Of a stretch of DNA of 64,000 nt, positions 5,348 through 14,172 are shown in pieces. The stretch lies in assembly GCF_016839145.1 (NCBI RefSeq), contig NZ_CP069303.1, forward strand, positions 1,364,001 to 1,428,000. The letters are read 5' to 3'. Source of the stretch: Shinella sp. PSBB067 (lineage in GTDB: Bacteria; Pseudomonadota; Alphaproteobacteria; Rhizobiales; Rhizobiaceae). The notes beneath the pieces are model-generated. The model did no database searches, was not told where the DNA came from, and was given only the letters and a program-made list of their open reading frames with translations. How positions within the stretch are numbered: position 1 is the stretch's first letter; each line of letters opens with the position of its first letter. The position numbers were made by a program, and so were the translations under genes.

Positions 5348-5713
5348 GGCCGACCTCCTCTGGATGACTGGACCGGAAACCGGCAAGCCCCAGGGATTGT
5401 TCCGCGCAACAAAAAAGGCCGGGGCGAAAACGCACCGACCTTCCTCATCATCGTCCTATCACCAGTGCCAGTACATCCGTGGTCAAGAGCAGCAGGCGAT
5501 GACGGCAATTGCGAGCGGCAGAAAGCTTCCAGCGCTCATCAGCAATGCCGATGGACGTGATATAGGAGGCCATTGTGTCCAAAACAAGGGCAATGCCGAA
5601 AATCGCAAACCCCGCCGCCGCACCCGGCGTTGACGCGCCGGGCAAAGCTGCTAAAAAGCCGCATCGCTCAAGGGGCGAGCCCGGCCCCGAGCCGGCGCTG
5701 CCCCTTGCTCCGT
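5348..5713. other. Gene-free stretch upstream of tRNA-Ser
   Basis: No convincing protein gene. A GTG at 5575 preceded by GGAGG opens a 53-codon low-complexity frame that runs into the tRNA, and a 65-codon minus-strand frame crosses the same bases. Neither looks like a real protein. The stretch presumably holds the promoters of the 70-aa gene (leftward) and of tRNA-Ser (rightward). Confidence 0.5.
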
Positions 5714-5803
5714 GGAAGAGTGGCCGAGCGGTTTAAGGCACCGGTCTTGAAAACCGGCGTAGGCGAGAGTCTACCGTGGGTTCGAATCCCACCTCTTCCG
5801 CCA
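5714..5803 (+). tRNA. tRNA-Ser (anticodon TGA)
   Basis: The acceptor stem GGAAGAG (5714-5720) pairs with CTCTTCC, followed by discriminator G and an encoded CCA (5801-5803). The anticodon stem CCGGT/ACCGG encloses loop CTTGAAA with anticodon TGA at 5748-5750. A long variable arm typical of class II tRNAs and a T loop (GGTTCGAATCC) are present. Its last six bases, CCGCCA, begin the direct repeat that bounds the accessory region to the right, so it is the likely insertion site. Confidence 0.97.
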
Positions 5804-5819
5804 AACACCGCCGATTGCC
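5798..5819 (+). repeat. Direct repeat copy 1 (putative attL, includes tRNA-Ser 3' end)
   Basis: A 22-base sequence beginning with the tRNA terminal CCGCCA and ending CCGCCGATTGCC. It is identical over all 22 bases to 11607-11628, and matches 14120-14142 at 21 of 23 bases when extended by one base. The distal part, ACCGCCGATTGCCGCAC (5807-5823), is also identical to 11481-11497. Confidence 0.8.
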
Positions 5820-6136
5820 GCACAAATTCACGGGCATCTCCTTAATTATCAAACAGATAGCTGGTTGCTAGGCAGTTGATCTAAGGGGACAGGTTCTCGC
5901 ACGCCCTACCACGTAGGATAGTCGTCCCGTTAGAGCCGCCGATCATACGCTATTGCCCCCGTTTTTCCGTGGGTGAACAAGCTTTGGGCATGCTGAATGT
6001 TCCCTTATTGTTCATGGTGGAGTACACTTGCTAAGCTGCGTAAAGATTCGAGCGTTGTCGGCAGATTACGTGTTGACCAGCGTGAGAAAGGCCAAGTAGG
6101 GCAAATGTTGCAATCATCACCTTTCTGGATGCCAAT
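5820..6136. other. Non-coding leader region of the nuclease-STAND gene
   Basis: 317 bases with no plausible gene. It contains a candidate LexA box (5999-6013) overlapping a sigma-70-like promoter: TTGGGC at 5984-5989, a 16-base spacer, and TATTGT at 6006-6011. The rest is unremarkable, AT-richer sequence. Confidence 0.5.
5999..6013 (+). promoter_or_regulatory. Candidate SOS (LexA) box upstream of the defence gene
   Basis: GTTC (5999-6002), seven bases, GTTC (6010-6013): an exact match to the alphaproteobacterial LexA direct repeat GTTC-N7-GTTC. It overlaps the possible -10 element at 6006-6011 and lies about 120 bases upstream of the first defence-gene codon. An eight-base pattern is expected about twice by chance in 64 kb counting both strands, so position is the main support. 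Confidence 0.4.
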
Positions 6137-6511
6137 TTGAGCAAAGCGTCAAAGCAGCCGAAGGCTACATCGACCGAGATCACCGGGGGAGCGGGCTTCA
6201 CTTACGAAGATACCGTTGTAGCCTACTACCTGTCCGCGCTCCTCCGAGAAGAAGGTGCTGCTCTCCAGAAAGGCGTTGTAAAGAGTGTTGCCGTACAGCA
6301 AAGCGGCCACGACCGTCCGATGGACGATATGACCATCGAGTTCGAGGACCAGGGAACGCTCGTAAACCTCGATCTTCAAGTTAAGACCGGTCTTTCCATC
6401 AGTAGCCGGAACACGGCCTTTATGGATGTCGTCACCCGCGCTTTGAAGACCCGCGCAGAGGACGGCTTTCAGCCTGACCGTGGCGCATATGGTTTGCAGT
6501 GGAGCGCATAG
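6137..6511 (+). pseudogene. Nuclease domain of an Avs-like defence protein (Cap4/DUF4297-like), frame broken at its 3' end
   Basis: A 124-residue frame carrying only a nuclease domain. GGAGFTYEDTVVAYYL (residues 17-32, Glu24), PMDDMTIEF (Asp64) and LDLQVKTG (Gln81-x-Lys83) have the order and spacing of the E...D...QxK PD-(D/E)xK nucleases seen at the N-terminus of Cap4 and Avs effectors. The reading frame ends with TAG just after GAYG, where the family sequence should continue. That continuation is found one frame back, starting at 6493 (F-A-V-E-R-I-A...). One base missing from the T-run at 6493-6495 would explain it. There is no canonical slippery heptamer. The start is TTG (6137) with no clear ribosome-binding site. 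It could also act as a separate nuclease subunit translated with the gene that overlaps it. Confidence 0.6.
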
Positions 6512-9500
6512 CAGTCGCCGGTCTGCAAACGTTGAAGCGGCTGATCGAATGGGCCAAGGCGAGTCCTGACGCTGGACACTTTGAGCGGCGCTTTCAGCCC
6601 GGGGGCGCAGCGGCGAAACCCGAGCGCGAGATGCGCGACGATCTCAAACCACTGATCGACGCGAAAACGGCTGAAGAGGAATGGGCTTTCTATCGGCAGT
6701 TCGTCGGTGAGCGGTTTGACGGGCTAAACGAGGGCGGCGCACTCAGAGCTGAAGTCATCAACCGGCTTCAGGAGTTGGTCGCTAGCAACGAAGATGGCCA
6801 GAGCACCCTTCTGTTCGACCGTTTGTGCCGAATTGTACGCGACGGCGCGGGAGCCGCGCGTAAGTGGACCCGGGCCTCTCTCCTCGACCAGCTGCGCGGT
6901 GGAGTGCGGCTGAAGGTGACGCCAAACTATCGCGTCGACATCGGCATTATCGAACAATTCTCGGCCGACGGTATCGCCGACATCATCGACGACATTGAAG
7001 GCTTCCAGGTCGAGCGTCCCGCGTTACGCGACAAGATTTCCGAGACACTCAGGACGCATCGCGTCGTTAACATCAGCGGCTTGCCAGGCTGCGGGAAGTC
7101 CGTGGTCCTCCGCCGCGTCGCCTCCGAAGCTCACCGGCGCGGACCGATCATCTTCCTCAAGTCCGATCGCCTCTCGGGCAAAAGTTGGCTTGAGTTCGCG
7201 GCGAAGCTGGGACTCCGGCATCGAAAAGCTGACGAGTTGTTGGCCGAGATCGCAGCGATCGGTTCGTCTGTTCTCTACATCGACGGTATTGACCGCATTA
7301 ACCCAGACCAAAAGCGCGTCATCCTCGACATACTGCACGCGATCGAGAGCAATCCGGCGCTCCACGGATGGCAGGTGTTGGCCTCGTCCCGCGATCAGGG
7401 GCTCGAGACGTACCGTGCTTGGTTCCCGCCATCGTTCTACAAGGGCTCAGCGATCGGTGATGTACAGGTAGAGCCGTTCAACGAAACCGAAGCGGAGGCG
7501 TTGGCAAAGGAAAAACCCGGGTTGCGTCGCCTGCTGATGGGAACGCCAGCCGTCCAAGACATTGCGCGAAGACCGTTCTTTGCGGCGGTACTGGCGCGGA
7601 GCTTTCAGGACGACGCGGCCGAGCCCCAAACCGAAACCGACCTTATCAACGCTTGGTGGGCGCGGGCCGGTCATGACGCACCGCCGAGCACGGCACCCCA
7701 GCGCCAACGCGCCCTTCTGGACCTTGCCGAGAAGGGCGTCAGCAACTTGGGGAAAAGCATCCCCGCGCGACACTTGTCGTCGCCAACCTTTGAGCACGTC
7801 GCCGCACTGAAGGGCGATCTTGTTGTCCGAGGTCACGACGGCGACGCCTCGTTCTCATTCACCCATGACATCTTTTTTGAATGGGTCTTCTTCCGGCTCC
7901 TCATCGACCTTGGGAGTGAATGGATACAGGGCATCGCTCGGGCTGGCGAACCGCCACTGCTGGGCCGTGTTATCGGACTTTTGGCGCAACACTCTCTGAC
8001 ATCGCAGGGCAAGTGGTCGGCGGGTTACATGGCACTCGAAGGATCGCCTCTGCGGCCACAGTGGCGCCGAGAGTGGTTGACCGCTCCCATGTTCACAAGC
8101 GCGTTCGCCGACGCGCAGAAGGAGTTCACAGATTTTGTCTCATCGAACGATTTCGCCCTGCTGGAAAAGGCACTGGTCTGGTTTCAGGCGCAGCATACCA
8201 TCCCAAGTCCGATGGTCCTCGGTCAAACTGACACTGAACGCGAGGGTTTCGAACGCATCCGTCTGGCCGAACTGCTTAGCTGGCCCTCAGACTTCGAAAG
8301 CTGGGGACGCTTTCTGGACTGGCTCATCACCCTTGCCCCTAGCGTTCCGGTTCGGCTCATACCGAACATCGTGGAAGTTTTTTCCGTTTGGCAGAACGCG
8401 TTGTCTGACCTACGCAATCCCAGGTCCAAGGCGATCGTCGAGCGTTGCAGCCAGTGGCTAATTGAGTTGGAGGAAGCGGTTTACCAAGATCGGCTGACAT
8501 TCGACCACAGTAAGTGGGACGCGCTCGGGCGCGATGCGTTGAAGCAGTTTGCAACGTCCCTCCGTATTGTGATCCTGCGCGCAGCGCGGGCCTACCCGAC
8601 GCCCGCGAACGCTCTGCTCGATCGCGCCATCGCCAACCAAAAGATGCGCGAAAAGGCCTATCCGGACCTGATGGCTCTTTCATGGATGATGGCAGAGGTC
8701 TCGCCCGAGAAACTGGCAGACGTCGCTAAAGCAGAGCTGTCCGAGGAGCTGCCACAGGACAAGGCGGACCGAAAGGCGAAACAACAACGAGAAAGGGGCG
8801 AGCGCCTGCGCCGCATTCGCGCGAAGCCGGAAAGCGAACGCACCGACGATGAAAAAAGGGCGCTACAGCATTTCCATTTGCCGATATCGAGCGATAGCGA
8901 GTTCGAAGACGACGTGGGGATCGACCGCCACCATAACTATTACTATCCCGTTTCGGCCTTGCACGAGCCGTTTGCCAGCCTCTTCGTCAAGAAGTCAGAT
9001 GTCGCCGTCCAACTGGTTCGCGATTTGGCTAACCATGCAACCACGGGTTGGCGTCAGTTTCGCAAACTTTCCCGCCGTCGCCCTGGCACACCGATTCCGA
9101 TCACGGTGACTTTCCCGTGGGGCGCCCAGCAGTTTTGGGGAGATTGGCCGGGGTACAACTGGCATCTCGGTCAGCTCGGTCCACAGCCACTTGAGTGCGC
9201 TTTTTTGGCGATGAGCTACTGGGCTTTTCGCGAAATCGAGGACGGGCGGTCCGTAGACGAAGTGATCCGCCTCGTTGTCGAGGGTAATGAAAGCGTCGCC
9301 GCGGCGGGCTTGGGTCTCGTCCTCGCCATCGAGACATTCCACATCTCCGAGGTTATGCTCGCTCTCGTGACGTGCCTGCGTCTCTGGCGGTACGATATTG
9401 AGCGTATGCGGCAAGAGCTGATGCGGAATGTCGACCTGTTAGGGTTCGGGGCCCTCTCGCAGCTGACCGGCGAAAAAGCAAAAGCGAAGGAATACATCGA

Positions 9501-11454
9501 CAAGCGCGTGAGCCGCTCGCGCGACGTGAAACAGCTCGCGATGCAGTTTGCCATCAACGCAGATGACACATTGCGGGAGCGATTCAAGCAAGCGCTTGAG
9601 CGCTTCCCATTTGATCTGCCTTACGAGCTGGAAGAACACAGTTCTGACCCGAACGCCACGGCCGCACTGACGGAATGGGCAAAGGAATACGCTGCGCTTG
9701 CAGTTCCTGAGAACTATCAGGGCTACCGAACCGCAGATGACCAGATTCTGGTGGCGTATCAGCCACCGCTCAGGCCCGAGGCCATCGAGCGAGGCGAGAG
9801 TGCCCGCATTTATCTTCTCCAGACCAGCTACCTTGCGTGGGCCATGAAGTCGCTTCGCGAGTTCAAACTCGCGCCGGACAAAACGCTTGTAGAGGCTGCT
9901 GCATTGGCGCGGCCGCTGTTCAATCCGTCGCTCTTCATAGAGCGGTTAGACGTTGAGGACCACAGGCCTCAAAGCTTGGTCGCCGCTGTGGCGGCTTGCG
10001 TCGTGTGTTACGGCGACAAGACTTCTGAGGACTATGCGTGGGCGCTAGATGTCCTCGCCAAAGTCGACGGGATGCGCGAGCCTACGGGGTTCTTCCACGG
10101 CTCGCAAATTGCGTGGCACCCAGCAATCCAGCTAGTCTATGCGTTGCTGCACCTGCGCCGCACGGAACCCGGCGATCTCGATCCAGCTCGCCGCCTACTG
10201 CGACTGACCCAGTACACCCACGAGGGTACTTCAGAGTTCGCCTTTGCGGCTCTACTCGCCGATCCCGCCCTTCAGGTGTCGTGGACGGCGGCGCAACTCG
10301 CCCTCGATCTCGCACACTACTATCGGCCGATCACCACCGCCACCGGCGACCGGGACAGCAAAGCCGCGATCAAGGCAGCGAAGAAGGCGTTAGACAGGGC
10401 CGCACGAGGACTTACCGCTAAAGCTCCCAAGCCATTTCCACCACTACCGCCTGCTTGGGTCCCGCAGGAGGCTGGTGAGATCTACGACGGCGACGAAGGT
10501 CATTGGCGGGAGCCCGATCCGCTATTCGACCCGCAGAGCGCAGAGAAAAAGCTGCGCAACTTTCCAATTGAACAATGGTGTGGGTCGCCAACCTTTAAGC
10601 CCCTCACGCTTGAACTCCTACGTGCGCTGGTGAGATGGACGGCAGAACGACTAAATCCGCCCGGCGCCGGCCCCGGTCGCCGCCGCGACCGGGCGGCGGA
10701 CCTTATTCAATGGAATGACGCCCTCGGCGATCTGCTTGCACGAGCCGCGCCGTTCTTCGAAACAGCTTTGGTCATTGAGGAGTTTTTGTCGCCGTTCATT
10801 AGCGGCAACGACGCGCTCGATGTCGTCGCGGAGTTTGCGGACAAGACTGTTACGCGCCATATCCTCGATTCGGCGGAGATTCCGCCCGGCACGTTAGAGA
10901 TACTGGCGGTTTGCGTTGACCGTGTCGTCAGTGATCCCACGTTCCGTTCGGGCGGTTACCGAGCCGGCGAGCTATCCGGCCGAGAATTGTCGCAGCTCGT
11001 CGACGCGTTGCTAATGGTCGCCATCAAGCAGGCGAATGGAGCGGCTCGTTTCGTAAACGGCGATTGGTCCGAGATTGGCATCGTGATGCCGCTCGTTACA
11101 CGGCTGATCTCGGCCGTTGGGTGGTCAGCCGATGTGATGTCGAAGTTCCTGCTGCTTTGCGAACGCGCTGGAGCCGCCTATCCGCTCGACGATTTCATCG
11201 TGCAAACGAACGCAGTTCTAGCAAAAATCGAGAATGCGAAAGGCAATTGGGTAGGCACAAGCCTCGCGGCACGTACAGCGGGAACGGTACAGCGCTTGGC
11301 TGATGCGAATTTTCCGCTTCGTGCCGATCAGGCTCAGGGCCTGCTCCGCATTCTCGACGCGCTGATCGACCTTGGTGACCGTCGCAGCGCTGCCCTTGAA
11401 CAGACAGAAGTATTCAAGAGCGTCCAGATTCCAGTGTCGGCGATGGCACAGTAG
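6499..11454 (+). CDS. Large STAND-type NTPase, body of an Avs-like antiphage defence protein (1651 aa)
   Basis: The protein has a P-loop NTPase with Walker A GLPGCGKS (residues 194-201), Walker B VLYIDGID (258-265) and a sensor-like LASSRDQG (294-301). A STAND-type segment FTHDIFFEWVFFRLL (about 454-468) follows, then about 1,180 residues of mostly helical sequence that probably form the repeat-type target sensor. In AVAST (Avs) proteins such a sensor binds a phage protein and activates an N-terminal nuclease, and here the nuclease is encoded immediately upstream in another frame. The GTG at 6499 overlaps the nuclease frame by 13 bases and has no ribosome-binding site. The first residues continue the nuclease-linker homology (AVERIAVAGLQTLKRLIEWAKAS), so the intact ancestor was probably one protein of about 1,770 residues. 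The family assignment rests on architecture, not on a database match; other STAND defence NTPases are possible. Confidence 0.7.
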   Translation: MERIAVAGLQTLKRLIEWAKASPDAGHFERRFQPGGAAAKPEREMRDDLKPLIDAKTAEEEWAFYRQFVGERFDGLNEGGALRAEVINRLQELVASNEDGQSTLLFDRLCRIVRDGAGAARKWTRASLLDQLRGGVRLKVTPNYRVDIGIIEQFSADGIADIIDDIEGFQVERPALRDKISETLRTHRVVNISGLPGCGKSVVLRRVASEAHRRGPIIFLKSDRLSGKSWLEFAAKLGLRHRKADELLAEIAAIGSSVLYIDGIDRINPDQKRVILDILHAIESNPALHGWQVLASSRDQGLETYRAWFPPSFYKGSAIGDVQVEPFNETEAEALAKEKPGLRRLLMGTPAVQDIARRPFFAAVLARSFQDDAAEPQTETDLINAWWARAGHDAPPSTAPQRQRALLDLAEKGVSNLGKSIPARHLSSPTFEHVAALKGDLVVRGHDGDASFSFTHDIFFEWVFFRLLIDLGSEWIQGIARAGEPPLLGRVIGLLAQHSLTSQGKWSAGYMALEGSPLRPQWRREWLTAPMFTSAFADAQKEFTDFVSSNDFALLEKALVWFQAQHTIPSPMVLGQTDTEREGFERIRLAELLSWPSDFESWGRFLDWLITLAPSVPVRLIPNIVEVFSVWQNALSDLRNPRSKAIVERCSQWLIELEEAVYQDRLTFDHSKWDALGRDALKQFATSLRIVILRAARAYPTPANALLDRAIANQKMREKAYPDLMALSWMMAEVSPEKLADVAKAELSEELPQDKADRKAKQQRERGERLRRIRAKPESERTDDEKRALQHFHLPISSDSEFEDDVGIDRHHNYYYPVSALHEPFASLFVKKSDVAVQLVRDLANHATTGWRQFRKLSRRRPGTPIPITVTFPWGAQQFWGDWPGYNWHLGQLGPQPLECAFLAMSYWAFREIEDGRSVDEVIRLVVEGNESVAAAGLGLVLAIETFHISEVMLALVTCLRLWRYDIERMRQELMRNVDLLGFGALSQLTGEKAKAKEYIDKRVSRSRDVKQLAMQFAINADDTLRERFKQALERFPFDLPYELEEHSSDPNATAALTEWAKEYAALAVPENYQGYRTADDQILVAYQPPLRPEAIERGESARIYLLQTSYLAWAMKSLREFKLAPDKTLVEAAALARPLFNPSLFIERLDVEDHRPQSLVAAVAACVVCYGDKTSEDYAWALDVLAKVDGMREPTGFFHGSQIAWHPAIQLVYALLHLRRTEPGDLDPARRLLRLTQYTHEGTSEFAFAALLADPALQVSWTAAQLALDLAHYYRPITTATGDRDSKAAIKAAKKALDRAARGLTAKAPKPFPPLPPAWVPQEAGEIYDGDEGHWREPDPLFDPQSAEKKLRNFPIEQWCGSPTFKPLTLELLRALVRWTAERLNPPGAGPGRRRDRAADLIQWNDALGDLLARAAPFFETALVIEEFLSPFISGNDALDVVAEFADKTVTRHILDSAEIPPGTLEILAVCVDRVVSDPTFRSGGYRAGELSGRELSQLVDALLMVAIKQANGAARFVNGDWSEIGIVMPLVTRLISAVGWSADVMSKFLLLCERAGAAYPLDDFIVQTNAVLAKIENAKGNWVGTSLAARTAGTVQRLADANFPLRADQAQGLLRILDALIDLGDRRSAALEQTEVFKSVQIPVSAMAQ

Positions 11455-11480
11455 TGAATCTCTGACATAGGCCGAAACAA

Positions 11481-11497
11481 ACCGCCGATTGCCGCAC
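11481..11497 (+). repeat. Direct repeat copy 2 (short)
   Basis: ACCGCCGATTGCCGCAC, 17 bases identical to 5807-5823. Together these two copies bracket the nuclease-STAND module. The copy begins 27 bases after the STAND stop codon. Confidence 0.7.
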
Positions 11498-11606
11498 GGA
11501 AGGTGAGATCGATCTTCTTGCGGTTTCATGATGTTAGCAACAGCTTTGAAGATTCAATCGGGAGGGCTATAGAGTAGATGTCGTGCCCATCAGGTTCCCG
11601 CACGGC

Positions 11607-11628
11607 CCGCCAAACACCGCCGATTGCC
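11607..11628 (+). repeat. Direct repeat copy 3
   Basis: Identical over 22 bases to 5798-5819, including the CCGCCA that forms the tRNA-Ser 3' end. It marks the left side of the AraC/MFS module and lies 110 bases right of copy 2. Confidence 0.8.
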
Positions 11629-11802
11629 CTCTATGGCGCGATATTGCCGCGGATCACTGCACCACCACCCGCGACGGCGAAAACCGCCGATTCGACGCTG
11701 CAGCCCGATATATCTTGAAGTTCAGCACCGGCCGCTTCCGACCTCATTGCGGTCGTTTCTTACGACTTCACCAATGCCTGAAAGCGGCAGCCCCCGCGTA
11801 AC

Positions 11803-12618
11803 CTATCTGCCGACGATCTTCTCTGTTTGGCGGAAGGCGCGCGGGCTGAACCCAATGGCGCTACGAAACATGTAGGTGAAGGCGCTTGGCGACTGGTATC
11901 CTAGATCGAGCGCTACCGAGCTGATTTTCTTGCCGGCGGCAAGCTGGGAGACGGCGTGAAGAATGCGGATTTGCCTCAACCAGCGCGAAGGCGGCATTCC
12001 TGTTTCGGTTATGAAAAGCCGCTCGATTGTCTTGCGGCTGGCCGAAGCGCCAATGAACCATTCGTCGATAGAAGCAATCGAGCCCGGATCATCTATCGCG
12101 GCCTGCGCGAGTCCGGAAATGCGCTTGTCCTGCGGCATCGCAATTGAAAGCGGGATGTCTCTGGCAGCCAGAATTTCATGAAAAAGCAGGTCGTATAACG
12201 CGGCCTCATGTGGCTTTGTAAGACCGGAGGACTCGCTGTCCGGGATAACGCCCATCAAGGCTTGAAGAAGCGGCGTCATCTGAACGATACGAGCCTCTGT
12301 TCCGAGCCTGTCTGCTTCTGCGCGGTTCACGTCGACATAGATGATCTCATTGCTCGATACATAGCGGAGCCAATGTTCAACATCAGGCGGTATCCACACA
12401 GCCATGGCCGGATTGAGAAGGAGAATCCGGTCGCGTGTGCCAACATACATCGATCCGCGAATGGCAGAAAAGAACTGCCCGAAATCGTGTGCATGCCAGC
12501 CGACGTCCCGACCTGCCTCCTGGCTTTCAATGTCGCGAATATATCGGGGCCTTGTTGCACCGGGCATCGTAGCGGAACCAAATGTCAGTTTGACGAAATC
12601 TAGATATAAATAGATCAA
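11803..12618 (-). CDS. AraC-family transcriptional regulator
   Basis: A 271-residue protein with an N-terminal cupin-like sensor (about 35-120; GWHAHDFGQFF, MAVWIPPDVEHWL) and a C-terminal double helix-turn-helix AraC domain (about 170-268; ASRKTIERLF, then SVALDLGYQSPSAFTYMFRSAIGFSPRAFR). This is the cupin-plus-AraC layout of local activators of divergently transcribed genes, and an MFS transporter starts 73 bases away on the other strand. The start is uncertain: the TTG at 12618 gives the longest form, and the ATG at 12567 would remove 17 residues. Neither has a good ribosome-binding site. The inducer is unknown. Confidence 0.88.
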   Translation of the reverse strand: MIYLYLDFVKLTFGSATMPGATRPRYIRDIESQEAGRDVGWHAHDFGQFFSAIRGSMYVGTRDRILLLNPAMAVWIPPDVEHWLRYVSSNEIIYVDVNRAEADRLGTEARIVQMTPLLQALMGVIPDSESSGLTKPHEAALYDLLFHEILAARDIPLSIAMPQDKRISGLAQAAIDDPGSIASIDEWFIGASASRKTIERLFITETGMPPSRWLRQIRILHAVSQLAAGKKISSVALDLGYQSPSAFTYMFRSAIGFSPRAFRQTEKIVGR

Positions 12619-12691
12619 TCATCGACAGAAAGACAGAACACCATCCCTTATTCTGACCGTGCGCTCGGACAGTGAAGGGACAGCGTCAGCC

Positions 12692-13846
12692 ATGGTCGCA
12701 ACGAGAACACAGCAGGACGCGGTGCCGGATTGGGCCGCCATCGTGATCGTCATATTGAGCGTGACAGCCTTTGCAGTCGCTCAGGGCCTCACTTTTCCGC
12801 TCATTTCCCTTGTGCTTGAAGCAAAGGGCGTGGCCGGAAGTCTGATCGGTCTGAATGCCGCCGCTTACGCGGCCGGCGCGATAGTGTCTGTTGTCACAAT
12901 AGATCAACTCACCGCAAGGGTCCGGGGCAACCGCCTGATCGTCGCGGCCTTGTTTGGCTGCTCTATCGGCCTCGCGGCGTTTGCCATGACTGACTGTCTG
13001 CCAATCTGGTTCATTGCCCGTTTCGCTGTCGGCTTTTGTGCGAGCTTGATCTCGATCCTAAGCGGAGCATGGCTGAACACCGCGACCCCCGACCGCATAC
13101 GCGGACGCATTTCCGGCTTCTATGGAACCGGCATGTGTGCGGGATTTGCAGCCGGCCCGTTGGCCATTCCGCTTCTAGGCACGACCAATGGTTCTGCCTT
13201 TGCGTTGGTGTCCGGCTATATCGCATCGATTGGTCTTGCTTGCACAGTCTTTAACGGCGGCACCCGCACAGTGCCAGAACGCGCGCCAGCAGGCGCATTG
13301 CTGCGCTTTATCGGCGCCGCGCCCATTCTGGTGCTCATAGAGCTGGCCTTCGGCTTTGCTGATATTGCTGCGATATCCGGTATGGCCGTCTACTTCGTTC
13401 GTGTGGGCCACTCAGAGGCGTTCACGGCCTACGCGATCACTGTGCTGTCGCTTCCCACAGCTTTTGCCCAGCCGGTAGTGGGATGGTTGTTAGACAAGAC
13501 TTCGCGCGCCGGGGTGACGATCGGCTGCGGCCTTCTGGGGGCGGTCGCATTCCTGATCATTCCATTCCTTCAGTCCGAAGCAGCCATTTTGATAGTATTC
13601 GCTGCCATCGGCATTGCAACATTTGCTCTGAGCACTTGCGCCCTCACAATTCTGGGCGAGCGTTTCGACGGCGGAATGCTGATAGCCGGAACCGCCAGCT
13701 TCTCACTGGCCTACTCCATCGGCAGCGCAATGGGATCGACTGGCACGGGTTTTCTTCTGGATTGGATTTCGCCAAGTGCTGTCCCGACAAGCGTCGGCTT
13801 GGGCCTGCTTGCTTTCACGATACTGGTTCTGTTCAAGCGCCCGTGA
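12692..13846 (+). CDS. Major facilitator superfamily transporter
   Basis: A 384-residue integral membrane protein with about 12 hydrophobic segments in two halves, and the MFS loop pattern after TM2 (DQLTARVRGNRLIVAA). It is probably an inner-membrane efflux carrier for a drug, sugar or metabolite, driven by the proton gradient; the substrate cannot be told. The ATG at 12692 is preferred (GAAGGGA about 11 bases upstream); a GTG at 12659 would add 11 residues. It is divergent from the AraC regulator and probably controlled by it. It forms the cargo of the second accessory module. Confidence 0.88.
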   Translation: MVATRTQQDAVPDWAAIVIVILSVTAFAVAQGLTFPLISLVLEAKGVAGSLIGLNAAAYAAGAIVSVVTIDQLTARVRGNRLIVAALFGCSIGLAAFAMTDCLPIWFIARFAVGFCASLISILSGAWLNTATPDRIRGRISGFYGTGMCAGFAAGPLAIPLLGTTNGSAFALVSGYIASIGLACTVFNGGTRTVPERAPAGALLRFIGAAPILVLIELAFGFADIAAISGMAVYFVRVGHSEAFTAYAITVLSLPTAFAQPVVGWLLDKTSRAGVTIGCGLLGAVAFLIIPFLQSEAAILIVFAAIGIATFALSTCALTILGERFDGGMLIAGTASFSLAYSIGSAMGSTGTGFLLDWISPSAVPTSVGLGLLAFTILVLFKRP

Positions 13847-14172
13847 TTTCTCGACCTGTGCTAAAGTCAGCTAACCAACGATTTCGCACAAAACCGGACA
13901 GTCTCCATTCACCCCGACCCGGTCATTCGCAGCGGCTGACCAATGGCGACAGCAAAAGGCGGACTTGGGGCGCAAACCTGCCGCCAAATGCACGATATCG
14001 CCGCCGTTTTTATACGCAAGCGCCGCCGAAAACCGCCGACCGCTGCATAGCGTTAAATATCTGCATAATTGTCAAAGGCTTATCACCATTTCATAGTGCT
14101 CAGCTTCGTCGGGCGCTGCCCGCCAAATGCCGCCGATTGCCGTTGGGCGAACCGAAGCGGTGAGTTGCGTGA
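13847..14172. repeat. Right end of the accessory region, degenerate repeats, no gene
   Basis: 326 bases without a credible gene. It holds the last direct-repeat copy (14120-14142), a partial copy at 13981-13991 (CCGCCAAATGC), and a block at 14021-14060 similar to 11671-11715 (AAAACCGCCGA, then CGCTGCA and an ATATCT-like end). The core chromosome resumes with the reductase gene at 14173. Confidence 0.6.
14120..14142 (+). repeat. Direct repeat copy 4 (putative attR)
   Basis: Matches 5798-5820 at 21 of 23 bases, the difference being TG in place of CA in the middle (CCGCCAAATGCCGCCG...). It forms the right boundary of the accessory region, 30 bases before the stop codon of the backbone reductase gene. 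Confidence 0.75.

Follow-up and report, generated by a model that had tools for sequence, protein, structure and literature searches.

The window analyzed here, 64,000 nucleotides of Shinella sp. PSBB067 (contig NZ_CP069303.1, positions 1,364,001 to 1,428,000), carries a nuclease-STAND gene within a small unit that opens at the 3' end of a tRNA-Ser gene. The features of this unit, in window coordinates, are as follows.

5714..5803, + strand: tRNA-Ser (tga), found by ARAGORN and Rfam tRNA; its last six bases, CCGCCA, open the mobile unit
5798..5922, + strand: conserved left end of the unit (nhmmer left-end alignment, E 5e-33, the window being 1 of 11 rows in the model); near-identity to a unit in another genus (locus L038) begins here
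6137..6511, + strand: frame 1, start of a Cap4-type nuclease (open reading frame [ORF] list, tblastn, motif alignment), with motif sites E24 at 6206, D63-D64 at 6323 and Q81-K83 at 6377
6499..11454, + strand: frame 2, completing the nuclease and adding the STAND NTPase and the sensor (ORF list, tblastn, motif alignment), with Walker A at 7078-7101 and Walker B at 7270-7293
7921..11451, + strand: Avs4-type superhelical sensor, residues 475-1651 of frame 2
11477..11604, + strand: weak left-end remnant (nhmmer E 9e-4)
11556..11612, + strand: conserved right end, ending in CCGCCA (nhmmer E 5.5e-14, genome search E 1.2e-13, the window being 1 of 17 rows in the model)
11607..11628, + strand: second copy of the 22-bp repeat, where the next segment begins

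Identical 22-base sequences lie at 5798-5819 and 11607-11628; a third, imperfect copy is found at 11472-11497. The first-pass annotation had placed the gene alone between direct repeats at tRNA-Ser, and 6499-11454 is indeed the only ORF of at least 200 amino acids there. It had also proposed an E...D...QxK nuclease followed by a STAND NTPase, and both motif sets are conserved where it put them. In the nuclease, D63, D64 and Q81 are invariant and E24 and K83 nearly so across 64 alignment rows. In frame 2, Walker A (GLPGCGKS) occupies residues 194-201 and Walker B (VLYIDGID) residues 258-265, and G197, G199, K200, S201 and D265 are invariant, with D262 nearly so, across 43 rows. The predicted nuclease fold is of the Cap4 type, and the nuclease motif, both Walker motifs and the long repeat sensor that are general to AVAST-type proteins are all present.

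Of known systems, Avs4 (AVAST type 4; PDB 8dgf, with the phage PhiV-1 portal) likewise joins a STAND NTPase to this sensor fold. In a comparison of predicted models, the fold agreement with Avs4 extends across the whole sensor (974 residues) at about 15% identity, and Foldseek ranks Avs4 first for both halves of the protein. Searching the PDB with the single sequence returned no convincing kin (two weak matches at E 0.61, and none in a second search); Avs4 was reached there only when the alignment served as query. A search with the sensor model lists Avs4 and not Avs3, and Avs2 was compared through one PADLOC match (E 0.051). Avs2 and Avs3 pair a Cap4-type nuclease with a terminase sensor.

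The earlier Avs-like assignment is partly supported: it stands for the Cap4-type fold, the STAND domain and the sensor, but the nuclease has no detectable sequence kinship with that of Avs4 (hhalign 0.064, residues 1-262). The Shinella protein also falls in a separate clade of the tree, in line with the suggestion of a distinct branch. Since it scores only 46.1 bits against the NCBIfam Avs4 model, whose cut-off is 1,500 bits, we file it as Avs4-like rather than Avs4. The closest known nucleases are those of Cap4 (CBASS), Hachiman, LmuA and HerA-DUF, here joined to a STAND sensor. The best PADLOC match is the candidate PDC-M54A (residues 84-472 of frame 2, E 2.7e-16), which matches in the nuclease end and STAND part but not in the sensor. 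A Hymenobacter protein, WP_245097727.1, has the same nuclease type (E 7.7e-17) joined to an Avs4-type remainder, but in the tree its long branch, whose position is uncertain, falls nearer Avs4. A literature search turned up no description of the nuclease-STAND family or its cassettes, although one may still exist in print. Being a nuclease-STAND receptor, the protein is of an ordinary kind; its combination and its branch are new, and in the Shinella genome it is broken.

The break is a single frame slip, located 3' of the catalytic motifs yet within the nuclease domain, which by fold extends to about residue 261. Five homologues, each a single protein, match frame 1 to 6493-6496 and frame 2 from 6493 (tblastn). 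The joined frames give 124 + 1,651 = 1,775 amino acids, and nearly all of the 120 homologues listed are single proteins of 1,700-1,870 amino acids. With 653 homologues at E<=1e-5, chance resemblance is excluded. Programmed frameshifting was rejected, as 77 of 80 related loci have one uninterrupted frame of more than 1,500 codons; the remainder are L051, L053 and L111, the latter two matched only in part. Because homologues span both frames as single proteins, the sequences indicate one slip in this copy, either a real mutation or an assembly error, with intact copies elsewhere. Values of dN/dS against L038 are low (0.125 and 0.204 for the two pieces of the gene, 0.35 in the last third), indicating at the sequence level that the gene is under purifying selection. 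An assembly error at the slip, with an intact gene in the strain, would fit these values and the otherwise open frames over about 5.3 kb, but a recent genuine mutation would give the same picture, and we hold an error to be somewhat the less probable of the two.

We propose that the C-terminal superhelix would bind a phage protein, by analogy with Avs4 most likely the portal, and that binding would let the STAND NTPase bind ATP and oligomerize. The oligomer would bring the N-terminal Cap4-type nuclease domains together, and the assembled nucleases would then cut DNA and end the infection along with the cell. According to one source (PMC12931631), Avs1-4 act by nucleases and are triggered by terminase, portal or another phage protein. 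Given that range, and an identity to Avs4 of only about 15%, the sensor might keep the Avs4 fold but answer to terminase or to a protein of unrelated role; the agreement over the entire sensor speaks against this, and we give it rather less than an even chance. The portal guess could be decided by a single co-expression test. If the NLR-like receptors of bacteria mix their sensors and effectors, an Avs4-type phage sensor joined to another nuclease type is what one would expect.

The unit itself has a near copy in a Rhizobiaceae metagenome-assembled genome of another genus (G307, locus L038), 96.7% identical and inserted behind tRNA-Ser(cga) rather than (tga), with near-identity beginning sharply at the tRNA CCGCCA. 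By comparison, 15 kb elsewhere in the window matches the same genome at 66-84% in 11 pieces. The tRNA-Ser(tga) gene could be read in 19 of 20 congeners, where the sequence behind CCGCCA is by eye unlike the unit, except for one faint left end in G011. Together these comparisons indicate that the unit moved recently between genera.

Among its ORFs, the unit has no serine recombinase of its own. In a congener (G004), the same tRNA-Ser(tga) has a right end about 20 kb away and is adjoined by a 540-amino-acid recombinase, whose frame, on the opposite strand, stops 32 bases into the tRNA gene. Among the matches of this recombinase are serine integrases, for example SPbeta YokA, TP901-1 and A118. 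Between recombinase and right end of this island (L248:764-16146) are ORFs of 1,260, 966, 946 and 1,034 amino acids that resemble a modification or defense set. Relatives of the recombinase occur in 71 of 297 genomes. Among the matches listed (the first 51 for the recombinase and 141 for right ends), 22 of 37 recombinases of at least 75% identity are accompanied, within 80 kb, by a right end at the position and on the strand predicted, and 15 have none, with no other placement seen; at 51-67% identity 1 of 14 has one. Fourteen of 30 recombinase loci end at tRNA-Ser (four anticodons) and nine at tRNA-Arg; for seven no tRNA was found. The only match listed in the Shinella genome is 30% identical (C2:806756), and G307 holds a recombinase fragment with stops.

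With serine-recombinase islands the cassette has in common the right end and the insertion site, the 3' end of tRNA-Ser, but it lacks a recombinase, so it is best read as a non-autonomous relative of the islands, probably moved in trans by an island large serine recombinase not resident in the genome. In S. meliloti, by contrast, each of the 88 site-specifically integrated sequences in one study came with an integrase of its own (PMC11476347). According to the same source, tRNA 3' ends are usual targets of tyrosine integrases; with the mover absent from the unit, transfer by a prophage tyrosine integrase, or together with neighboring DNA by homologous recombination between tRNA-Ser genes, deserves mention. 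We consider it rather unlikely: in two different tRNA-Ser genes the near-identity sets in abruptly at CCGCCA, right ends and serine recombinases correspond in position and strand, and no PF00589 gene lies within about 145 kb in the Shinella genome. A resident tyrosine integrase was rejected, since each of the nine PF00589 matches in the Shinella genome either is on another contig or lies no nearer than about 145 kb. In G307 (8), G384 (5) and G498 (7) no such match is near the units; among the matches listed for other genomes, nearby PF00589 genes in G580 and G403 lie outside the unit ends and appear by eye to be a prophage gene and an insertion-type gene. Separately, at L205:9286-12624 two right ends bracket an ORF that by eye and Pfam count resembles a serine recombinase, together with two RepB-like ORFs. 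The RepB-like pair was rejected as mover: it occurs in 3 of 19 left-end genomes against 13 of 151 sampled genomes, therefore in no clear excess.

Domains, motifs, predicted folds, kinship, purifying selection and the defense neighbors of relatives are the basis of the immune reading. Around those relatives, 69 PADLOC models were matched at E<=1e-20 by at least one flanking ORF, a count of models and not of ORFs, since several models match one gene; the scan covered 112 of 130 ORFs of at least 200 amino acids, from 14 of 16 chosen loci. The 25 models listed include Wadjet, Shedu, Gabija, Lamassu, DRT, an Ago-associated nuclease and Avs1a. The 35 other ORFs of the window had no PADLOC match, this being a single region and not a matched control. 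We regard it as likely that the gene encodes an immune protein that resembles Avs4 but has another nuclease, and that it is carried as cargo of a non-autonomous unit that an island serine recombinase moves. A STAND regulator or cell-death switch with no anti-phage role is very improbable: STAND proteins do include regulators and eukaryotic NLRs rank high for the NTPase part, but Avs4 leads the Foldseek ranking for both halves, the nuclease residues are retained and defense genes adjoin the relatives.

Units with such ends form a family. Left ends (11 rows) and right ends (17 rows) each align well, and CCGCCA closes 11 of the 17 right ends. Across 394 family genomes of 109 genera, 25 places match the left-end model, spread over 19 genomes and 13 genera. 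In a set of 31 stretches, namely 30 loci and the window, 25 distinct left ends were counted at E<1e-4 (26 rows, one place appearing twice). Eight lie directly behind tRNA-Ser, eight directly behind a right end and nine behind neither; the nine include one truncated by a contig start and two preceded by tRNA-like sequence. The right-end model alone reaches 98 of 394 genomes and 56 of 109 genera. Besides the nuclease-STAND gene, cargo includes a second type of STAND protein accompanied by DUF3800 or HNH genes, DarT/NADAR, a chromate transporter, a P450, LysR and MFS genes, and others. Purely defensive cargo was rejected, as PADLOC matches 1 of 47 cargo ORFs at 1e-5 and many are metabolic. The left end as a structured RNA was likewise rejected (consensus energy -1.98 kcal/mol, both-sided change in 1 of 10 pairs). 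One exact pattern and two blastn queries gave no match to units in viral contigs, plasmids or phages.

Staphylococcal cassette chromosome (SCC) and cis-mobilizable elements also combine a 3'-end target, tandem stacking, shared ends and members without a recombinase. The units here differ in targeting tRNA-Ser in Rhizobiaceae-family genomes and in being small, with immune or metabolic cargo. Tentatively, and at close to even chances, we suggest an SCC-like system of the Rhizobiaceae at tRNA-Ser, in which serine-recombinase islands coexist with stackable recombinase-less cassettes that have common ends and bring single immune or metabolic genes from one genus to another, one such cassette bearing a receptor with an Avs4-type portal sensor and a Cap4-type nuclease. 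This system is a more open question than the receptor. It would offer a testable route for the spread of single immune genes, as the small cassettes appear to borrow the recombinase of islands at the same tRNA.

Several further arrangements were seen. On the L038 contig, a second unit follows directly behind the first (L162:11723-17839), with the same left end; it carries a DUF3800 gene besides a 1,444-amino-acid STAND protein, and a relative (hhalign E 8.8e-67) is cargo in L165. A second left-end type shares the first 22 bases and then has another conserved stretch (window 11607-11711, L175 and L177-L181). It lies at tRNA-Ser of four anticodons in L175, L177, L179 and L180, and behind a right end in L163; in L161 (4353-5738) a CBASS-type DncV-like nucleotidyltransferase lies just behind it. 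In L166, L178 and L210, a common 30-base stretch ending in CCCT precedes CCGCC upstream of the left ends; it corresponds to no known Rfam gene in L166 and L178 and may be another target gene. Downstream of the Shinella cassette, the array probably continues.

11607..14125, strand not assigned: probable next array unit (Pfam; its right end is weak, E 1.1e-3)
11803-12618, - strand: AraC-type regulator (Pfam)
12659-13846, + strand: MFS transporter (Pfam)
14093-14125: weak right end (nhmmer E 1.1e-3)

On the other side, just upstream of the tRNA-Ser, Rfam places the Alphaproteobacterial small RNA ar35 at 5408-5552 on the - strand.
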